DNA of 64,000 nt. It comes from Phytoactinopolyspora limicola. GTDB lineage: Bacteria; Actinomycetota; Actinomycetes; Jiangellales; Jiangellaceae. Shown here in pieces: positions 61,548 through 62,381 of this stretch (the stretch's first letter is position 1; every line of letters begins with the position of its first letter). Below the pieces are notes generated by a model that was not told the DNA's origin, made no database searches, and worked only from the letters and a program-made list of their open reading frames with translations. Position numbers and translations under genes: made by a program. Where the stretch lies: positions 1 to 64,000 of the forward strand of contig NZ_JAAOEN010000012.1 of the NCBI RefSeq assembly GCF_011320225.1. Direction: 5' to 3'.

Positions 61548-61671
61548 CGGAGCTCCTCCTCGCTCGTCAGCCGAGCGGGCTCCGGGGGGATGGGTCGCTT
61601 CAACGACCGAACCCGACATACACCATGATTCGGGGACGCTTATACACGTCCGCCGACAAGGCGATGCCGTT

Positions 61672-61806
61672 GCGTGCTGCCTCCCATCCGGACTTTCACC
61701 GTCGGTTCCGGAATTCCACCGGATCAACCGACCGCCTCGTCGAGACGGCAGCCGGGTCGCGGACTGTCACCGCCGGTTCGGAATTTCACCGAGCCCCGGA
61801 GCACGC
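61672..61806 (-). promoter_or_regulatory. FMN riboswitch (RFN element)
   Basis: Read on the minus strand, the P1 stem is GCGTGCT (61806-61800) with AGCACGC (61678-61672). Between them come the invariant segments GGTGAAATTCCGAACCGGCG, GACAGTCCGCGACCC, GGTGGAATTCCGGAACCGAC and GAAAGTCCGGATGGGAGGCA. FMN binding would lower expression of ribD-ribE-ribBA-ribH. The region 61548-61671 is the expression platform; I see no clear terminator with a U-run, so translational control is as likely. Confidence 0.95.
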
Positions 61807-61885
61807 TTCGTTCTCCTAATGGGAGTATAACCGCCGCCTAGCGAGTCGTCTTCCGGCGCGGATATGACACATCGCACTCCGTCAG

Positions 61886-61946
61886 GTGCACCTGATCTCC
61901 GTTTTGACGCCTGATCTTTTTCATGGGGGCAATCAGATGCACCGAC
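61886..61946 (+). repeat. Left arm of 61-bp inverted repeat
   Basis: It matches the reverse complement of 62271-62331 at 60 of 61 positions. It begins GTGCACCTGATCTCCG and contains motif copies 1 and 2. Confidence 0.9.
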
Positions 61947-62270
61947 CACGCATGGCGGCTGGTGACGACGCGGTGAGTACATCTGATCGGATCTTAGAGT
62001 GTGAATGCGCGGCGATCAGATGCGTGAACGGGGTCTATCAGTGGGTTGGTGCATCTGATCGTCAACATCCTTAACGTCGATCCGCGTCGCGCGACCAAAC
62101 CCCATGGCACACCCATGCCCCCCTTTTTCCAGACTGCCTAGGGGCGAGGTGGTGGACCCATCGGACGATCAGATGCACTACACGGCTTAAACGGCTTGTC
62201 CGTGCATCTGATCGCCGCGCGTCCACATCTCGGGATGCGATCAGATGCACTCATCGGGCGGTCACGCGTC

Positions 62271-62331
62271 GTCGGCGCATCTGATTGCCCCCATGAAAAA
62301 GATCAGGCGTCAAAACGGAGATCAGGTGCAC
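62271..62331 (-). repeat. Right arm of 61-bp inverted repeat
   Basis: It is the partner of 61886-61946, with one mismatch. It contains motif copies 9 and 10 and ends 51 bp before the rpe stop codon. Confidence 0.9.
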
Positions 62332-62381
62332 GCGGAGGGGAGGGGGCGGGTGGCATGGTTCTCCGTGACGGGCCGTGGTCG

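Follow-up and report, generated by a model that had tools for sequence, protein, structure and literature searches.

The array of 13-bp repeats at positions 61886-62331 of the window is probably a copy of a non-autonomous interspersed palindromic element (REP-/MITE-like) that is partnered by an AbiEi-DUF559 protein, the single gene for which in each genome lies inside one copy of the element. The elements form a dispersed family of fixed geometry, the gene lies between matching arms, and the protein clade and the motif are co-distributed and have co-evolved. The window is the whole stretch of DNA that was analysed, 64,000 nucleotides of Phytoactinopolyspora limicola (GCF_011320225.1, contig NZ_JAAOEN010000012.1, positions 1-64,000); we refer to the genome it comes from as G000.

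Allowing up to two mismatches, we recovered ten copies of the 13-mer in this interval, spaced by 44, 47, 36, 36, 117, 36, 36, 37 and 44 bp and leaving four spacers of 23 bp and one of 24 bp, in agreement with the coordinates, copy number and distances given in a preliminary description of this DNA. That description also called the array strictly alternating, which stands only in part. The ten copies do alternate in strand, but only 4/10 are exact, and two degenerate sites (cores 61908-61916 on the minus strand and 62301-62309 on the plus strand), each 19 bp inward of the outermost site and on the same strand, raise the total to 12, with which alternation is no longer strict. Chance can be excluded for the array, because 13 matches to the 13-mer were found in the whole window compared to 2.5 expected, a number reached in 0/100 shuffles, and shuffled sequence held at most one match per 450 bp. 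As had been proposed, this is not a CRISPR array, since the repeats alternate in orientation and are thus not direct repeats.

The element in the window is an imperfect palindrome, with outer arms of 74 nt that are 93% complementary, inner arms of 102 nt that are 72% complementary, and a 78% match between the left arm and the reversed right arm. Folded as single-stranded DNA, it gave a z of -19.8. The spacers had been described as unrelated, which these complementary arms contradict, as does one spacer class that is more similar within an element than between elements (0.73 versus 0.56, p=0.0005). Across the family, arm identity within one element compared to between elements was 0.91 versus 0.83 for outer arms and 0.70 versus 0.64 for inner arms. 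The sole Rfam match near the window element was an FMN riboswitch (RF00050, 101 bits) at 61671-61807 on the minus strand, upstream of ribD; the element lies between this riboswitch and the 3' end of rpe.

Table 1. Features of the palindromic element in the window.
Feature	Position	Strand	Basis or remark
Whole element, imperfect palindrome	61886..62331		~178-bp left and 168-bp right arms, variable centre
Left arm, sites 1-6	61886..62063	+	inverted pairs I1 and I2
Right arm, sites 7-12, mirrors left arm	62164..62331	-	inverted-repeat comparison
Conserved terminal block GTGCACCTGATCTCCGTTTTGNCRCCTGATC, sites 1 and 2 (19 bp apart, same strand)	61886..61917	+	near-invariant over 99 family ends
Right-hand conserved terminal block (sites 11 and 12)	62300..62331	-	family end alignment
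Site 3 (CAATCAGATGCAC)	61930..61942	+	13-mer search
Site 4	61977..61989	-	13-mer search
Site 5	62013..62025	+	13-mer search
Site 6, exact 13-mer	62049..62061	-	13-mer search
Site 7, exact 13-mer	62166..62178	+	13-mer search
Site 8, exact 13-mer	62202..62214	-	13-mer search
Site 9, exact 13-mer	62238..62250	+	13-mer search
Site 10	62275..62287	-	13-mer search
Central segment, length and sequence vary between copies	62064..62163		site 6-7 gap 105-270 bp in most copies
C-rich outer flank (read towards element), weak in window copy	62332..62350	-	family consensus CCCCCGTT just outside ends

With the window element as query, a search of the P. limicola assembly (6.59 Mb, 40 contigs) returned many diverged copies, with up to 72% identity over their full length. 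The terminal motif CACCTGATCTCCGTTTNNNCNCCTGATC produced 143 matches (0 for the backward control). As each element has two ends, this would correspond to an estimated 70-80 or so elements, a lower bound because the assembly breaks at these repeats. Contigs C2, C13, C16, C18, C19, C21 and C28 end inside or just past an element. The same motif was absent from the four congeners searched. Neither GTDB contigs nor IMG/VR contained an exact 21-mer match, and plasmids gave none either, which places the family on the chromosome and, at the sequence level, within this lineage.

Complete copies mostly span about 440-650 bp and carry six sites per arm with the core GATCAGRTG, ordered from each end at 19, 25, 38/48/58, 36 and 36 bp, followed by the variable centre and the mirror arm. 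This geometry is kept in P. alkaliphila (G001) and in G015, and in the P. limicola genome we counted 107 GATCAGRTG site pairs with a spacing of about 36 bp. Among 99 element ends, the 31 outermost bases hardly vary, with the C-rich consensus CCCCCGTT outside them, and some elements are near-perfect palindromes. Core-to-core spacings fall into classes of 19, 23, 33-35, 38-40, 49-51 and 60 bp; these steps of ~10-11 bp, about one helical turn, suggest that proteins could be bound to one face of the helix at GATCAGRTG sites. Two miniatures of ~149 bp (L113, C1:352108-352257, and L120, C2:151143-151291) have three sites per side (19, 25) and are missing the inner 36-bp sites. A candidate long element at C7:51783-57602 was rejected, as it consists of two separate elements around ordinary genes, and an ORF check of the long apparent element L066 found no recognisable transposase.

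The likeness to BIME/REPIN clusters noted in the preliminary description, along with its suggestions of a non-autonomous transposable element or a multi-site protein platform, pointed in the right direction, and the genome-wide search found the repeats to be dispersed. Nor is the 13-mer randomly frequent without bias in period or orientation; elsewhere in the genome, the motif keeps the same ordered geometry. A further suggestion, a structured RNA in the rpe 3' region, found no support: copies of the element lie at dozens of unrelated gene ends, and two congeners, G004 and P. alkaliphila, lack it in their orthologous rpe-ribD gap. This gap measures ~550 bp in P. limicola compared to ~45 bp and ~110 bp, respectively, with both flanks otherwise conserved. 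Another element, at L129, has no counterpart in G002 (~24 bp gap) or in P. halotolerans (G003; ~100 bp gap). No target-site duplication was visible in the element flanks, but the intergenic DNA is too diverged for exact junctions at the empty sites to be read. With genes called by codon composition, 25/38 elements lie between convergent genes and 2/38 between divergent genes (convergent excess p=1.4e-7, divergent deficit p=0.0016, each against 25%), often ~8 bp after a stop codon. This 3'-end bias may reflect an insertion preference, tolerance of insertions, or a role at 3' ends.

In P. limicola, one 1.47-kb copy (C7:70127-71598; L124/L132) encloses an ORF of 310 aa, with 96% identity between the flanking arms, and no relics of this gene were found in the other elements fetched from the genome. 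The left end of this copy (L132 1100-1200) appears to provide an upstream ROK-like kinase ORF with its stop codon, the TGA of CACCTGATC. The structure predicted for the 310-aa protein has a pLDDT of 86, with low confidence at residues 255-268. In fold comparisons, its residues 9-200 matched the AbiEi antitoxin 6y8q (Z 10.3), and residues 203-307 matched the endonuclease-like NGO0050 (3hrl; Z 7.6). Both Z values are middling, yet two independent lines, AbiEi profiles and DUF559, agree with them. The AbiEi profiles matched with an E of 9e-19; for DUF559 (PF04480), the C24 paralogue of P. limicola scored above the gathering cut-off (21.7 versus 20.6), others scored below it, and the C7 protein gave no match. 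A profile search of PDB sequences, unlike the fold comparison, gave no match. Residues D239, E250, H256, D265 and R268 are invariant within the close family of the protein. On these models, the partner is a predicted fusion of an AbiEi-like winged-helix N-terminus to a DUF559-like putative nuclease domain.

No adjacent AbiEii (DUF1814) toxin gene was found among the scanned neighbours, pcrA in P. limicola and sdhB in G019, or among the P. alkaliphila neighbours, which were read by eye. The neighbours pcrA/uvrD and sdhB are common to Jiangella and Haloactinopolyspora, and the P. limicola gene is also beside pcrA, while that of P. alkaliphila is located elsewhere. Beside pcrA, the partner gene seems to have been passed on largely by vertical descent, so that the gene itself may not be mobile.

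Our survey covered 22 Jiangellaceae genomes, including P. limicola. GATCAGRTG site pairs ~36 bp apart were present in 9/22, and the gene subclade in 8/9 of these (with a broken copy in G015) versus 0/13 of the others (one-sided p=2.8e-5, shared ancestry ignored). A tree of 33 homologues recovered the GATCAG proteins as monophyletic (100/100 support). The gene is located between complete or near-complete arms in P. limicola, P. alkaliphila and H. alba, and between arms short of some sites in G015, while G016, G019, G010 and J. anatolica have an arm on one side only. In G015 (C1:4789200-4790400; L144/L098), the partner is a pseudogene with an in-frame TGA and a frame break, its arms persist, and the genome has 14 site pairs. 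G017 has 37 GATCAGRTG pairs without a close homologue in its assembly, which counts against the partner model; it is possible that the gene was lost and the repeats survived.

The sites could instead be operators of an AbiEi-like regulator that combines autoregulation with genome-wide action, as a regulon or nucleoid platform, without mobilisation. AbiEi proteins bind tandem inverted repeats, including 23-bp inverted repeats in their own promoters (PMC7319586), and spacing steps of about a helical turn would suit a cooperative complex. We nevertheless consider this explanation unlikely, because the palindromes are found on both sides of the gene rather than at the promoter alone, the dispersed copies are mostly at 3' ends, element number ranges from 0 to dozens among close relatives, and the conserved nuclease-like domain is left unexplained.

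Homologues outside the GATCAG subclade are flanked on both sides by different palindromes. These are GATCATGAG arrays in G006, CCGACAT...ATGTCGG in G002, G004, G021 and the second paralogue of P. limicola, and, for more distantly related Jiangella homologues, palindromes of the TGATCATCAAGGATC type; at the two P. halotolerans genes, we saw no repeats of this kind in the flanks. Some of these other palindromes are also dispersed, with TGATCATCMAKGATC scattered in Jiangella genomes (81 matches in G016, control 0) and CCGACAT-N22-ATGTCGG forming 24 pairs in G021, 13 in P. alkaliphila and 11 in G002. All listed G021 matches to CCGACAT/ATGTCGG are exactly 36 bp, and matches of other lengths, a minority in other genomes, are probably due to chance. 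Among 46 selected 36-bp copies, leaving out one same-length match judged to be coding, the stems covary (54 two-sided cells versus 28 shuffled; covariation 0.236 versus 0.155; 0/500 shuffles), with the seven outer stem pairs uninformative because the search pattern fixes them. The second AbiEi-DUF559 paralogue of P. limicola (L155, C24:32252-33085) is accompanied by CCGACATT...AATGTCGG palindromes, several of which are scattered elsewhere in that genome. P. limicola thus houses two independent gene-repeat systems.

Homologues are also present in Aeromicrobium, Haloechinothrix, Frankia, Hoyosella and others, and in 148/394 class-level genomes (E<=1e-15). At 15 of 25 de-duplicated loci from actinobacterial families other than Jiangellaceae, a gene-spanning inverted repeat exceeded the 99th percentile of 600 swapped-flank controls (p=5e-10). 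This recurrence bears on whether the elements are ordinary MITEs moved by some conventional transposase, with the AbiEi-DUF559 gene as a passenger in one copy. Such an origin would account for the long terminal inverted repeats, dispersal and patchy distribution, but we regard it as quite improbable, since the gene is repeatedly associated with palindromes, and with different ones, across several clades and families, which is unexpected of a passenger, and the target-site duplications of a MITE were not seen. Least probable are host-selected bidirectional 3'-end elements (terminators or mRNA stabilisers), which fit the strong convergent bias and the placement just past stop codons, but this bias also fits insertion tolerance, no T-tract follows the arms, whose flank is C-rich, and the elements are missing from orthologous junctions and most congeners.

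We therefore favour a non-autonomous palindromic element served by an AbiEi-DUF559 partner. The AbiEi-like winged helix would bind GATCAGRTG half-sites as phased protomers, and is their likely reader because AbiEi proteins recognise tandem inverted repeats (PMC7319586). The DUF559-like domain, as modelled, is likely to cut the palindrome or its hairpin, by nicking or full cleavage, and host repair would then copy elements to other locations, chiefly the 3' ends of genes. Hairpin copying or quasi-palindrome correction could account for the near-perfect arms seen in some copies. More tentatively, this may be a new class of bacterial mobile element, in which an AbiEi-DUF559/Vsr-like fusion spreads copies of its own palindromes through actinobacterial genomes without any DDE, HUH, tyrosine or serine recombinase, and the recognised palindrome has diversified along with the protein. 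In the open-access literature searched, we found no paper tying DUF559 or AbiEi to dispersed palindromes and no description of this system.

If correct, this explanation would provide a partner enzyme for interspersed palindromes of high-GC actinobacteria and a function for the large, poorly annotated AbiEi/DUF559 group, and would mean that REP/RAYT-style gene-repeat partnerships also evolved around an unrelated enzyme. Because protein clades and half-sites come in natural pairs, DNA recognition can be tested in a straightforward way.

The system shares with REP/BIME/REPIN repeats and RAYT their dispersed short palindromes, mostly extragenic, one repeat-flanked partner gene per genome, often at a conserved place, and repeat sequences that change together with the protein clade. 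REPIN/RAYT populations likewise combine a single, mostly vertically inherited partner gene with dispersed repeats (PMC8049555). However, a RAYT/TnpA-REP-like transposase, which the preliminary description had suggested looking for, was found neither in P. limicola nor in 21 relatives; the linked gene instead encodes the AbiEi-DUF559 nuclease-like protein. The Y1 HUH transposase domain (PF01797) was detected in 0/22 Jiangellaceae genomes versus 5/14 control genomes, and the terminal consensus GTGCACCTGATCTCCG has no GTAG/CGTC tag, as REP end tags are defined (PMC3733652). The elements are also larger, at about 440-650 bp with 12 phased sites per complete copy. The system works like REP/RAYT but is set apart from it, because the defining enzyme and tag are both missing.

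Like MITEs, the elements are short and non-coding, have terminal inverted repeats that form long arms, and share the genome with a longer copy that carries a gene. They differ in that no target-site duplication was visible in the flanks, in a partner unlike any known transposase, and in sites that stay fixed while spacer sequences diverge widely. The AbiE type IV toxin-antitoxin systems (AbiEi, Rv2827c) share the AbiEi-like N-terminal region and inverted-repeat sites as the likely target (PMC7319586), whereas here a DUF559-like C-terminal domain replaces the separate AbiEii toxin, and the repeats are dispersed as well as present on both sides of the gene. Finally, the weak DUF559 profile match, the resemblance of the C-terminal domain to 3hrl and the five conserved residues recall DUF559/Vsr-like endonucleases, but in this family the putative nuclease is fused to an AbiEi-like DNA-binding domain and tied to palindromic repeats.
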